64,000 nt of DNA from Streptomyces sp. DvalAA-43 (lineage in GTDB: Bacteria > Actinomycetota > Actinomycetes > Streptomycetales > Streptomycetaceae), in assembly GCF_900091725.1 (NCBI RefSeq), contig NZ_FMBW01000052.1, positions 62,001 to 126,000 on the forward strand, read 5' to 3'. Both the position numbers and the translations under genes were made by a program. This document shows, piece after piece, positions 22,899 through 28,080 of the stretch. The notes below the pieces were generated by a model. It saw nothing but the letters and a program-made list of their open reading frames with translations, was not told the DNA's origin and did not search any database. Positions within the stretch are counted from its first letter, which is position 1; each line of letters opens with the position of its first letter.

Positions 22899-23528
22899 CT
22901 ACGCGGAGGCCGCCGCCCCCAGCCCCGCGAGCAGCAGCACGGTGAAGCGCCGGGCCCAGTCCGCGTCGACGGACTCGGCGCTCACCAGGACCCGGTGCAC
23001 GACCGCGCCGGCGATCACGTCGAAGATCAGGTCGGCGGTGGTGGACGCCGTGCCCTCGTCCGGCTCGACGGGCAGTTCCCCGCGCTCCTGGGCCCGCCGG
23101 CGGCCCTGGAGCACCAGCCGTTTCTGCCGGTCCACGATCGAGTCGCGGATCCGGGTCCGCAGCGCCTCGTCGCGCGTCGACTCCGCGACCACCGCCATCA
23201 GCGCCGTCCGGGTCTCCGGCCGCTCCAGCAGCGCGGCGAACTGGAGCACCACCGCCTGCACATCGGCCGACAGACTGCCCAGATCGGGCAGCTCCAGTTC
23301 GTCGAAGAGGACCGCGACGGCGTCCACGACCAGCTCGTTCTTGCCCGCCCAGCGCCGGTACAGGGTCGTCTTGGCGACCCCGGCCCGCGTCGCCACATCG
23401 CCCATGGTCAGCTTCGACCAGCCGAGATCGACCAGGGACGCCCTGGTCGCCTCCAGGATCGCCTCGTCGGCAGCGGCGCTGCGCGGGCGTCCCGTTCGAG
23501 GGGGGCGGGGGTGGCTGCGGCTCAGCAT
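22899..23528 (-). CDS. TetR-family transcriptional regulator
   Basis: This 209-aa repressor has its N-terminal HTH at about residues 20-68 (ILEATRASLVDLGWSKLTMGDVATRAGVAKTTLYRRWAGKNEL). The C-terminal ligand domain includes VVAESTRDEALRTRIRDSIVDRQK. It carries a Pro/Arg-rich start (MLSRSHPRPPRTGRPRS). It is convergent with icmA and has an inverted repeat in its own promoter, so autoregulation is likely. Control of icmA is possible but the two palindromes differ. Confidence 0.92.
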   Translation of the reverse strand: MLSRSHPRPPRTGRPRSAAADEAILEATRASLVDLGWSKLTMGDVATRAGVAKTTLYRRWAGKNELVVDAVAVLFDELELPDLGSLSADVQAVVLQFAALLERPETRTALMAVVAESTRDEALRTRIRDSIVDRQKRLVLQGRRRAQERGELPVEPDEGTASTTADLIFDVIAGAVVHRVLVSAESVDADWARRFTVLLLAGLGAAASA

Positions 23529-24879: not shown

Positions 24880-24914
24880 GCCTCTGCTTTACCAAATCTT
24901 GATAAAGCAGAGGC
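24880..24914. other. AT-rich 12-bp perfect hairpin of unknown role
   Basis: GCCTCTGCTTTA and TAAAGCAGAGGC pair perfectly around an 11-nt loop. It has no U-tract and follows the terminator by 20 bp. It is much less GC-rich than anything nearby. It could be a second terminator, an sRNA terminator-like stem or a protein site. Confidence 0.5.
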
Positions 24915-24916
24915 CT

Positions 24917-24931
24917 GTTACTCGCAGTAAA
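24917..24931. promoter_or_regulatory. GTTACT..AGTAA inverted repeat, copy 1
   Basis: GTTACT-CGC-AGTAAA is an imperfect version of the site at 25045-25062, located about 480 bp upstream of the DUF6230 gene. Confidence 0.4.
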
Positions 24932-25044: not shown

Positions 25045-25062
25045 CGTTACTAGCGAGTAACG
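25045..25062. promoter_or_regulatory. CGTTACT..AGTAACG inverted repeat, copy 2
   Basis: Seven-base perfect arms surround AGCG. It is probably an operator for the DUF6230 operon, lying about 350 bp before its start. Confidence 0.55.
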
Positions 25063-25411
25063 AACCCCCTTGTGTCACGGGCGGGAATGCACCACGATCG
25101 GCCACGCTCGGTCCAATAACGTCAGCCCGGCGGCCAGTCGGCGCGGCGGCCCTGTTGGGTCCCCACCGAGTGGGCCGGCGGCAGTGGCGCCGGTTCCGGA
25201 CAGGGGGGTTCCTGTCGTCCGGCAGGGCCTGTCCGAACAGGTTGCGCGCATGCGTGGCCAGTGGTTGTCGCTCGGGGGTGATCGCCGGTGATTCGGACGC
25301 GGTTCATGCCTCCGTCGCGGGCGCTCTCCTTGCCGAGGACGTAGCACTTCTCCCATCCCAGGACGGGCCCAGGCCCGGACCGGAGATGTACGTCCGAGAA
25401 GGAGGAAAATT
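25063..25411 (+). other. Long non-coding leader upstream of the DUF6230 operon
   Basis: No convincing gene is seen in these 349 bp. Several self-complementary segments occur, notably CCGGACAGG near 25195 that can pair with CCTGTCGTCCGG just after it or with later CCTGTCCG. The region ends in a near-perfect Shine-Dalgarno (AGAAGGAGG). A structured 5' untranslated region is possible, but no known riboswitch class was recognised. Confidence 0.35.
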
Positions 25412-26065
25412 ATGAGTTCCCAGGTTCGTGGCGGCACCAGATGGAAGCGTTTCGCTCTGGTCATGGTGCCGAGTGTCGTCGCGACCGCGGCGGTGGGTGT
25501 CGGTCTCGCGCAGGGCGCCCTCGCGGCGTCGTTCAGCGTGTCCGGCCAGAGCTTCAAGGTGAGTGCGGACAAGCTCGTCGGCCACAACTTCGTGCAGTAC
25601 GGCAGTGTGGCCACCGGTACGAACCCCGAGGGCAAGAACGGGGCGCACGCGGTAGCCGTGTCCGGCTTCAGTGACGCCAAGATCACCAACATGTGCCAGT
25701 CGGTGGTCACGCCGAACCTTCCGTTCGGCCTCGGCACCGTCACGCTGGTGCTGAACGCGGGTACGAACCCGAAGAAGCCCGTCAAGGCGACCAATCTGTA
25801 CCTGGACGTCTCCGAGCTCGACGCGGATGCCCAGTTCAAGAACATCGACATCGGTGTTGCCGCGGGTTCCCTCAAGGACCCGAACAACCCTGATTCGATC
25901 GGCATCCAGCCCCGCACCCAGGCCAACCCGGACGGCTTCTCGCAGCGTGCCGAGGAAGCCAAGCTGACCGGTGTGAAGCAGACGGCGTGGGCCACCACCG
26001 CCGGTACCTTCAAGCTCAGCAACCTGAGCCTGCGGCTGAAGTCGGGCACCAAGGAGTGCTACTAG
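25412..26065 (+). CDS. DUF6230 family exported protein
   Basis: This 217-aa protein has an N-terminal twin-charged segment and a hydrophobic helix (about residues 10-38, WKRFALVMVPSVVATAAVGVGLAQGALAA), a signal peptide or membrane anchor. A beta-rich extracellular domain follows with two Cys (in ITNMCQSVV and the C-terminal KECY). The family was formerly mislabelled cholesterol esterase; no catalytic serine motif is visible. It has a very strong ribosome site. It leads a three-gene operon with a DUF6114 membrane protein and a second exported protein, and all three are of unknown function. Confidence 0.87.
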   Translation: MSSQVRGGTRWKRFALVMVPSVVATAAVGVGLAQGALAASFSVSGQSFKVSADKLVGHNFVQYGSVATGTNPEGKNGAHAVAVSGFSDAKITNMCQSVVTPNLPFGLGTVTLVLNAGTNPKKPVKATNLYLDVSELDADAQFKNIDIGVAAGSLKDPNNPDSIGIQPRTQANPDGFSQRAEEAKLTGVKQTAWATTAGTFKLSNLSLRLKSGTKECY

Positions 26066-26158
26066 CACTCGCCCGGGTGGCCGGAGCGCCCTCGGGATCT
26101 CCGGCCGCCCACCTTGTCCCTTCTCACAGCAGTACCGGTTCCAGGGAGCTGTTTTCCA

Positions 26159-26724
26159 TGAGCCCCGAGTCCACAGGGCAGAACGAGCACTACCTCCGCG
26201 TCTTCTGGCGGGGATTCCGCACCTGGCGGGGTAACCGGCCGTTCTGGGCGGGCCTGTTCACCATGGTGGGTGGTCTACCCATCGCGTATTTCCCGTACGC
26301 CAACATGCACCTCGGCAACGTCACGCTGGCGATGTCCACGACCGCCGGCGCGGGGTCGCTGATCATCGGGATCCTGCTGATCACGCTGGGCCTGACGATG
26401 TGGTTCCACCACATCGTCAGAGTGTTCGCCGGAGTCGCCGCGATTCTGCTGGCGCTGATCTCCATACCGGTCGCCAACATCGGCGGATTCCTGATCGGCT
26501 TCCTCTGCGCCCTGCTCGGTGGCGCGCTCTCCATCTCCTGGGCCCCGGGCGAGCCGAAGCCCGACCCCGGACCGGCCGGTGCGGCGGGGGAGAAGTCCGA
26601 GGGGACCGGCCCCGGGACGCAGGAGCCCGGACCCGGGTTCCACGGCACGGCGGCGGTGCCACAGCAGCCGGAGCAGTACGACACGACAGTCGAGGTCGAC
26701 GGCGGGAGGCATCGTGCGGGGTGA
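26159..26724 (+). CDS. DUF6114 family integral membrane protein
   Basis: This 188-aa protein begins MSPESTGQNEHYLRVFWRGFRTWRGNRPFW. About four hydrophobic segments follow, at residues 29-48, 54-72, 76-98 and 100-124, and then a cytoplasmic or external Pro/Gly-rich tail. The FW-RP-W start is the family mark. It sits 93 bp after the DUF6230 gene and overlaps the next gene by 11 bp, so the three products probably assemble together at the membrane. The function is unknown. Confidence 0.87.
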
Positions 26725-28018
26725 CGAGAGGCAACTGGACCCGGCCCGGGAGGACTCCGGGACGAGAAACGGACCGCGTCACGCGGCCCCCAGGAAGTCG
26801 TTGCTGACGAAGCTGCACATTCCGGCGGGCAAGGCGTTCGCCCTCGCCGCGATGCCGACGGCCGTCCTCGTGGGCATGGGGCTCACCCCCAAGCTCGCGC
26901 TGGCCGACGACAGTTCGGACATCCCCTTCGCGCCCGGCCCCTGTGTGACCCGCTCCGACGAGCCGAGCGAGGAACCCTCGCCGTCCGCGTCGAAGTCGTC
27001 GTCCCCGACCCCGTCCGCCACTGCCACCGGCTCCGGCGATCAGGACGACACGGCGACCCCGAAGCCCTCGACGACCCCGTCCGCGAGCGACAAGGCCGAG
27101 CCGAGGACGAAGGCCGCGGGGGCCGACGCCCCCGCCGCCGCGCCGAGCGCCTCGCCCACTCCCACGAAGACGAGGAACCCGCTCGACCCGCTGGGTGTCG
27201 GCGACGCGCTCAGGGACCTCTTCGACGGACCGGACAAGGAGACGGCGAGCCCGTCCCCGAGCGCGAGCACGGCGTCCCCGAAGCCGTCACGGACCGACAC
27301 CGCGAAGAAGTCCGACGAGAAGTCCGACGAGAAGTCCGACGAGAAGTCCGACGAGAAGCCCGTCGAGAAGTCCGCGGACGCCGCGAAGGAGACGGCCGAC
27401 AAGACGGCCGACGCCATCCGCGAAGCCGCGGGCCGGGCGGGCAGGACGGTCGAGGAGCTCGACGACAGCGCCAAGGGACTCGACGCCAAGAAGGACGAGG
27501 ACATCCCGGACGGCGCCAAGGAGCGCTTCCCCTGTCCGACCCCCGACCCCGAGGCGCTGGCCGCGGCCGATCTGGAGACCGGCGTCCCGCTGCTCCCGAC
27601 CGACCCGTGGATCCTGGAGAGCTCGATGCTCACCCTCAACGGGCTCGACTACAAGGGCATCGTCGAGGTGAAGACGTACAACGGCACCGTCAAGAAGGTG
27701 CTGAAGTTCACCGCCAGCTCCATCGACATCGACAACCTCCATCAGAAGACGGTCGGTCCGGCCGGTACGACGGCCCATGTCGAGGCGCGGAAGGGATCCA
27801 AGTCCACCATCCGCGACGGCACGGTGACCATGTACACGGAAGAGCTGAAGGGCAATCTCTTCGGCCTCATCCCGGTCACGTTCAGCCCGCGGACCCCGCC
27901 TCCGCTGAACGTACCCTTCGCCTTCTTCACCAAGGTCAAGGTGACCCAGGCCGGCCAGTTCGGCGGCACGCTCACGGTCCCCGGACTGCACAACTACTTC
28001 ACCGGCGGCAACAGCTAG
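26714..28018 (+). CDS. Exported protein with low-complexity stalk and DUF6230-like C-terminal domain
   Basis: This 434-aa protein starts at GTG 26714 with GGGAGG 4 nt upstream, inside the previous gene. A hydrophobic segment at about residues 38-62 (KAFALAAMPTAVLVGMGLTPKLALA) is followed by a long Ser/Pro/Thr/Lys stalk (about 70-260) that contains four exact KSDE repeats. A folded C-terminal domain comes last (about 295-434, PWILESSMLTLNGLDYKGIVEV to LHNYFTGGNS). Two Cys lie at the edges of the stalk. The architecture suggests a surface-anchored domain on a flexible spacer. No catalytic motif is recognised. It ends before a bidirectional terminator. Confidence 0.8.
   Translation: MRGDERQLDPAREDSGTRNGPRHAAPRKSLLTKLHIPAGKAFALAAMPTAVLVGMGLTPKLALADDSSDIPFAPGPCVTRSDEPSEEPSPSASKSSSPTPSATATGSGDQDDTATPKPSTTPSASDKAEPRTKAAGADAPAAAPSASPTPTKTRNPLDPLGVGDALRDLFDGPDKETASPSPSASTASPKPSRTDTAKKSDEKSDEKSDEKSDEKPVEKSADAAKETADKTADAIREAAGRAGRTVEELDDSAKGLDAKKDEDIPDGAKERFPCPTPDPEALAAADLETGVPLLPTDPWILESSMLTLNGLDYKGIVEVKTYNGTVKKVLKFTASSIDIDNLHQKTVGPAGTTAHVEARKGSKSTIRDGTVTMYTEELKGNLFGLIPVTFSPRTPPPLNVPFAFFTKVKVTQAGQFGGTLTVPGLHNYFTGGNS
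27308..27355 (+). repeat. Four exact 12-bp tandem repeats (KSDE) in the stalk
   Basis: The unit AAGTCCGACGAG occurs four times in a row, in frame, encoding KSDE each time, followed by a degenerate KPVE unit. Identical codons in every copy point to recent slippage. Confidence 0.9.
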
Positions 28019-28041: not shown

Positions 28042-28080
28042 ACCGTGGGCCGCACTCCTCGAAGGAGTGCGGCCCACGGT
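28042..28080. terminator. Strong bidirectional terminator
   Basis: Perfect 18-bp arms (ACCGTGGGCCGCACTCCT and its complement) with a 3-nt loop lie between the DUF6230 operon and the convergent pyruvate kinase gene. Confidence 0.92.

Follow-up and report, generated by a model that had tools for sequence, protein, structure and literature searches.

A conserved DUF6230-DUF6114 operon with a che1-bearing, structured leader in Streptomyces, possibly a lipid-responsive module of the cell surface

RESULTS

Three conserved genes for envelope-directed proteins

In the window, by which we mean the whole 64-kb stretch of DNA analyzed, three genes on the forward strand, here called P1, P2, and P3, are flanked by a thioredoxin-TPR gene and by a pyruvate kinase gene that runs toward them (Table 1). 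The original prediction described these as three translationally linked genes; P2 and P3 overlap by 11 bp, but P1 and P2 are 92 bp apart, so not all three are linked in this way. The genes themselves are real and strongly conserved. A search with P1 returned 229 relatives, and in the best 80 of the 229, which we kept as comparison loci, both P1 and P2 were present in 80/80 and the P3 domain in 79/80, the only exception being a locus cut at a contig end (L032). Within 5-kb flanks of the same best 80 loci, thioredoxin-TPR and TetR genes were found in all 80 and pyruvate kinase, by our own ORF extraction, in 63. The TetR-family gene (TetR_C_11; 22899-23528, reverse strand) adjoins the thioredoxin-TPR gene in each of the 80. 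Judged from its sequence, the perfect 16-bp inverted repeat behind P3 is a possible shared terminator of P3 and the pyruvate kinase gene; it was unreported by a terminator scan that demands a T-run, and a promoter scan, which is not telling for Streptomyces, found none.

Table 1. Positions of the operon genes and associated features in the window
Feature	Position	Strand	Basis or detail
Palindrome 1, TTACTCGCAGTAA, candidate operator	24918-24930	.	Conservation across 80 loci
Palindrome 2, TTACTAGCGAGTAA, candidate operator	25047-25060	.	Conservation across 80 loci
che1 RNA motif (Rfam RF02935), 5' leader	25197-25287	+	cmscan 102.4 bits, E 3.8e-16
Predicted hairpin, 3' arm holding the ribosome-binding site	25321-25409	+	Conservation, folding
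Ribosome-binding site AAGGAGG of P1	25399-25405	+	Sequence
P1, exported beta protein, DUF6230, SCO5420-type "cholesterol esterase"	25412-26065	+	217 aa
P2, small membrane protein, DUF6114	26158-26724	+	188 aa
P3, signal segment, Cys-bracketed low-complexity region, and C-terminal beta domain	26714-28018	+	434 aa, GTG start
P3 low-complexity region, Cys77 to Cys274	26942-27535	+	Cys count in orthologues
P3 C-terminal domain	27500-28015	+	AlphaFold2 mean pLDDT 91.3, mainly beta
Perfect 16-bp inverted repeat with a 5-base loop, interval from P3 to the pyruvate kinase gene	28043-28079	.	

P1 is a secreted beta protein, P2 lies in the membrane, and P3 has a beta domain probably related to P1

P1, an exported protein, matches the whole DUF6230 profile (PF19741, 1-145 of 145) at 191.9 bits (gathering cut-off, 27.5; E 8.6e-57) and has a mainly beta model with a mean pLDDT of 80.2, in which residues 1-42 fall below 50. 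P2 likewise matches the whole DUF6114 profile (PF19609, 1-106 of 106) at 113.9 bits (gathering cut-off, 27.9; E 6.7e-33). The four-helix membrane protein anticipated for P2 is borne out by three clear hydrophobic helices, while the first helix is weaker. P3 had no match to Pfam up to an E value of 1, and its NCBIfam matches were at chance level. An hhalign comparison with the DUF6230 alignment (E 2.2e-4, probability 44.7) was colinear along the entire P3 C-terminal domain, and the P1 and P3 domain models agree in the order of predicted strands toward the C-terminus, suggesting that this domain is probably a distant DUF6230 relative. The expectation of two exported beta-rich proteins thus agrees with confident, mainly beta models for P1 and the P3 C-terminal domain.

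P3 was also expected to place a folded domain on a long disordered stalk, and the domain is modeled with confidence. The proposed stalk (approximately residues 67-278, 212 aa, rich in A/S/P/D/T/K/E) has Cys77 and Cys274 at its ends, and exactly two Cys residues precede the domain in 61/62 orthologues, with one Cys in the remaining one; these 62 are the orthologues in which our own pattern placed a signal peptide. With a Cys residue at each end, the low-complexity region may be closed by a disulphide into a loop instead of extending as a stalk. The P3 C-terminus, which ends in TVPGLHNYFTGGNS, has no LPXTG motif, hydrophobic stretch, or basic tail, so that P3 lacks the C-terminal signal of a sortase-anchored surface protein.

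In one related locus (L143), DUF6114 and the P3 domain are encoded in a single 512-aa open frame, and among 20 further DUF6230 loci of our own picking, seven (L198-L204) have one open frame of 650-857 aa with both domains, preceded by a second DUF6230 gene upstream. These frames were counted from the first possible start, and their N-terminal ends are uncertain. A ninth locus (L155) joins P2 and P3 by eye, with a weak match to the P3 profile (E 0.019). The joined frames predict a complex of the pair, and it is possible that the joined product is cut by signal peptidase after translation.

Searches with the P1 model among solved and viral structures and with the P3 domain among solved structures gave nothing at E ≤ 0.001, and the best VIA Z scores were 2.5 for P1 and 2.2 for the P3 domain, with no clear match to a solved fold. 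In sequence searches, P1 had no match in the PDB and P3 one at chance level (E 0.91), and PHROGs gave none. Such missing matches do not show that P1 or the P3 domain has a new fold.

DUF6230 and DUF6114 are linked across the phylum

Of 396 genomes sampled from the phylum, 22 carry DUF6230 and 26 carry DUF6114. DUF6114 stands directly downstream on the same strand at 35/36 DUF6230 places, one of these pairs (in G352) being a fragment on both sides, and the linkage is seen in five families belonging to the window's class and in two that do not. Conversely, DUF6230 precedes 35/40 DUF6114 places; of the other five, two lie in genomes of the outside family f18 (L150 and L151), where a more sensitive profile found the partner, and three are matches below the cut-off. 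Together with the 79/80 loci that keep all three genes, these counts bear out the conserved linkage proposed for the trio. Within the window's own family, DUF6230 occurs in 148/150 sampled genomes and 16/17 genera, which makes a core role at the cell surface probable for the operon.

Several further copies were also observed. The window's own genome holds a second DUF6230-DUF6114 pair with neither P3 nor che1 (L159, 7209-8455, contig C12), which adjoins a leucine carboxyl methyltransferase-family gene. Extra copies in L155 (5323-12178) and L154 (6748-10652) lie beside MPAB/Lcp (rubber oxygenase family) genes, and in L154 a further neighbor encodes squalene/phytoene synthase and prenyltransferase domains in one protein. 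Since 0/20 further loci had an MPAB/Lcp gene, we dropped the idea that such oxygenases are generally linked to the pair. L142 (6137-9881) carries a tandem DUF6230-DUF6114-DUF6230-DUF6114 array followed by a 326-aa exported protein with no Pfam match, and a third DUF6230 place is also listed there.

Two conserved palindromes stand upstream of che1

The two candidate operators have the forms TTACT-N3-AGTAA and TTACT-N4-AGTAA, with some variation. The pair is kept in 74 of the best 80 loci, spaced by 129 bp in 73 and 128 bp in one, while the other six keep one palindrome by the pattern used. Mean identity to the window is 0.924 and 0.916 at the palindromes compared to 0.62 between them, and the exact pattern occurs at only five places in the whole genome, two of which are before P1. 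The other three (G000:C11:343957, C43:97349, and C86:250591; L162, L163, and L166) have neighbors that could reveal other targets of the regulator. In a different locus set of 52 rows, a looser pattern was present at least once in 29/29 rows with a che1-like tail, which include loci from other genera of the window's family, compared to 1/23 rows without such a tail; three of these 23 come from one locus, and one has almost no upstream sequence.

Two candidate regulatory schemes were set aside: autoregulation by the neighboring TetR gene, because both matching palindromes of the window stand before P1 only, and a general fatty-acid regulon, because there are only five places genome-wide. Beside palindrome 1, after the thioredoxin-TPR gene, we also observed a perfect 12-bp inverted repeat (GCCTCTGCTTTA ... 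TAAAGCAGAGGC, 24880-24914), the center of which is kept across the 80 loci while the outer arms vary.

The leader combines che1 with a more conserved ribosome-site hairpin

The 91-nt che1 motif, which later work credits to Weinberg et al. 2017, scores well above the Rfam gathering score of 54.1 and occurs once per genome in 12 of the 396 phylum genomes. Between che1 and P1 lies a predicted hairpin that is more conserved than the gene behind it: over the 80 loci, identity to the window is 0.967 and 0.988 in its arms (25325-25359 and 25382-25406), compared to 0.803, 0.844, and 0.641 at the first, second, and third codon positions of P1. The strong ribosome site and the long, structured upstream region that had been noted are both confirmed, and the region is also conserved.

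In single folds, AAGGAGG is predicted to pair with CUCCUU at 25326-25331, while the consensus pairs it in a shifted, neighboring register. Since 17 of the 20 consensus pairs never vary and none is changed on both sides (alignment of 45 sequences picked out of 93 distinct), covariation neither supports nor opposes the pairing and was dropped as evidence. The apical part varies in sequence yet keeps its stem, with 87 distinct loops having a mean z of -2.1 against mononucleotide shuffles and 90% falling below -1. The 5' arm is unique in its own genome at up to three mismatches. Pairing of the ribosome site is predicted at 0.71-0.99 per base in a fold from 25290 and only partly in longer folds (0.12-0.85 from 25150 and 0.02-0.93 from 25060). 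A leader switch that hides the ribosome site is a prediction, with the site only partly closed in the longer folds. High or controlled expression had been proposed for this operon; since the ribosome site lies inside the predicted hairpin, the leader favors control over simply high expression.

For S. clavuligerus, one report suggests that the intergenic region with che1 may code for a protein of 145 residues (PMC11678152). In our leader-frame test, which covered 77 loci after 4 of 81 that have no landmarks were left out, the ATG of the invariant ATGTACGTCC (25386-25395) shares the frame of P1 in 42 and lies in another frame in 35. Downstream of the che1 hairpins, the frame of ATGTACGTCC stays open in 19/77 loci, while 26/77 have no open frame, and a conserved leader peptide is unlikely.

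P1 corresponds to SCO5420 by position and leader, and its sequence does not secure the esterase label

The operon had been thought to have no recognized pathway, which does not hold for P1. The order of P1, two genes, and pyruvate kinase in the window and related loci has the same spacing as SCO5420 to pyk2 (SCO5423) in Streptomyces coelicolor, and one study calls SCO5420 a cholesterol esterase and reports that Tween raised it almost 37-fold (PMC7494193). In a re-annotation of S. lividans, che1 precedes SLIV_11405, listed under cholesterol metabolism, and is among the elements validated by RNA-seq (PMC8079986). By its position and che1 leader, P1 is taken to be the SCO5420 gene.

The enzyme claim is said to come from Xiang et al. 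2006 and 2007, on a cholesterol esterase of Streptomyces. In an alignment of 66 P1 orthologues, including the window, at least 62% identical, no His column is invariant. The one column in which His forms a majority reaches 80%, and at both places where the window has His, the residue is missing from the ten most divergent sequences. We also looked for a GXSXG motif in P1 and found none, while S40, S44, K49, S84, C95, S97, and D132 are among the invariant residues. Since P1 has neither a conserved His nor GXSXG, its sequence makes a classical lipase/esterase with a Ser-His-Asp mechanism unlikely, and we rejected that reading; P1 may still be an enzyme with some non-classical mechanism. The cholesterol-esterase claim is not secured by sequence since no catalytic triad is conserved.

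Other reports match P1 by label alone: the "cholesterol esterase" C9Z6Y6 in the S. scabiei secretome (PMC4098958); SACTE_4612 of SirexAA-E, a "putative cholesterol esterase" that xylose raised 1.51-fold and xylobiose 2.04-fold (PMC12772271); and S. venezuelae Sven_0933, which is nitrogen-responsive and has no S. coelicolor homologue (PMC3087709). If the xylose- and nitrogen-responsive genes correspond to P1, its response may not be specific to lipids. In S. albulus, a DUF6230 gene is placed among moderate promoters (PMC12835213). Our literature search returned nothing on SCO5421, SCO5422, or DUF6114, and the Streptomyces RNA papers searched for SCO5420 do not treat the gene in any passage found.

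A DUF6230-like domain occurs on murein hydrolases outside the class

In the seven loci of f18, a family outside the window's class that looks like Rubrobacteraceae, the pair adjoins a gene for a protein with SLT and M23 domains (by Pfam in L147 and L146, by similarity in the others). An alignment of the N-terminal domain of this protein, built from six of these loci, matches DUF6230 by hhalign (E 4.6e-9, probability 96) over P1 residues 9-137, while the P3 domain has no match to it (E 0.11). In three loci (L147, L149, and L151), a protein with an LPDTG/LPNTG-type tail, identified by eye, is encoded in between. Within about 4 kb of the pair, six of the seven loci also have a 3-hydroxyacyl-CoA dehydrogenase/enoyl-CoA hydratase gene (by Pfam on L147, with similar N-termini in the others), and these six have a TetR gene near the pair; in the stretch of L151 inspected, the dehydrogenase/hydratase gene is absent. 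The f18 neighborhood supports both a cell-wall and a lipid reading of the pair.

DISCUSSION

As the original prediction held, the three genes form a unit that is directed to the envelope and shows signs of control over its expression; the unit is also conserved. Tentatively, we favor a lipid-responsive cell-surface module that pairs a secreted beta protein with a membrane partner bearing a related domain, a reading we consider quite possible though somewhat short of probable. P1, whose family is reported to hydrolyse hydrophobic esters, would bind esters such as sterol esters or Tween, P2 would form a four-helix membrane platform, and P3 would present its own beta domain, distantly related to P1, on the outside next to P2. 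We propose that the two beta domains take up hydrophobic molecules at the surface and either process them or pass them on, with contact between the three proteins, the substrate, and the direction of any transfer all being putative. A presumed regulator binding the two palindromes would be the first level of expression control, and the leader RNA, in which che1 and the hairpin would hide or expose the P1 ribosome site, the second.

We favor a lipid-responsive module because of the SCO5420 position, the Tween induction, and che1 preceding SLIV_11405 under cholesterol metabolism; because of the DUF6230-DUF6114 linkage, the joined P2-P3 frames, and the colinearity of P3 with P1; and because of the dehydrogenase/hydratase and TetR neighbors in f18 and the signal-like and membrane segments. 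Several points stand against it: neither model has a clear lipid-binding fold match, no active site is recognizable, the hhalign probability between P3 and P1 is only 45, and genes labeled cholesterol esterase respond to xylose/xylobiose and nitrogen. The DUF6230-like domain on the f18 murein hydrolases is a further such point and, as an N-terminal domain of SLT and M23 proteins, favors a module for wall remodeling, in which DUF6230-type domains would bind the wall or a wall-linked polymer, DUF6114 would anchor them, and esterase activity would be incidental. The LPDTG/LPNTG-type tail proteins beside the pair in three loci (by eye) and the lack of a catalytic triad in P1 agree with this, and presence in 148/150 genomes of the family is easier to reconcile with a core role in the envelope than with a nutrient met only now and then. 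On the other hand, the strong Tween induction and the published enzyme family speak against such a module, the Streptomyces operon has no hydrolase gene, and the alignment with the wall-hydrolase domain is confined to P1 residues 9-137, while the P3 domain has no match to it (E 0.11); we regard a wall module as rather unlikely, though the SLT-M23 proteins lend it real weight.

A plain secreted esterase, in which P1 has an unrecognized active site and P2 and P3 are accessories for export or retention, is less likely than either a lipid-responsive or a wall module and in itself doubtful: literature titles, the Tween induction, and, by label match alone, C9Z6Y6 in an S. scabiei secretome speak for it (PMC4098958), but P1 has no conserved His, DUF6114 accompanies even divergent DUF6230 copies, and P3 carries its own, probably related domain that is joined to P2 in other loci.

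A lipid-responsive module could also take a bolder form, which we think improbable: an actinobacterial surface machine for hydrophobic molecules, with a fold unseen among solved structures, built on a DUF6114 base with two DUF6230-type beta domains and governed by a leader-RNA switch. If this were true, one DUF6230 domain would be secreted and one tethered, and che1 with the hairpin would be a translational switch. The operon offers a direct test of whether the "cholesterol esterase" annotations of this DUF6230 family describe an enzyme. The P1 family and che1 are already known, and in the literature covered we found no description of the three-gene unit, the joined frames, the relation of P3 or of murein hydrolases to DUF6230, or the ribosome-site hairpin.

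Three known systems resemble parts of this operon. The SCO5420-type cholesterol esterase shares its gene position, che1 leader, and exported protein; in the passages covered, it is published as a single protein, whereas the operon described here is a three-gene unit known from sequence, in which no catalytic triad was found. The che1 RNA (RF02935) is the same motif upstream of the same gene, and the leader differs in its more conserved ribosome-site hairpin, which lies outside the Rfam model and is not described in the che1 passages covered. Finally, P1 and P2 are clear members of the Pfam families DUF6230 (PF19741) and DUF6114 (PF19609), to which Pfam gives no function; the present analysis adds their linkage, the joined frames, and the relations with P3 and the SLT-M23 proteins.
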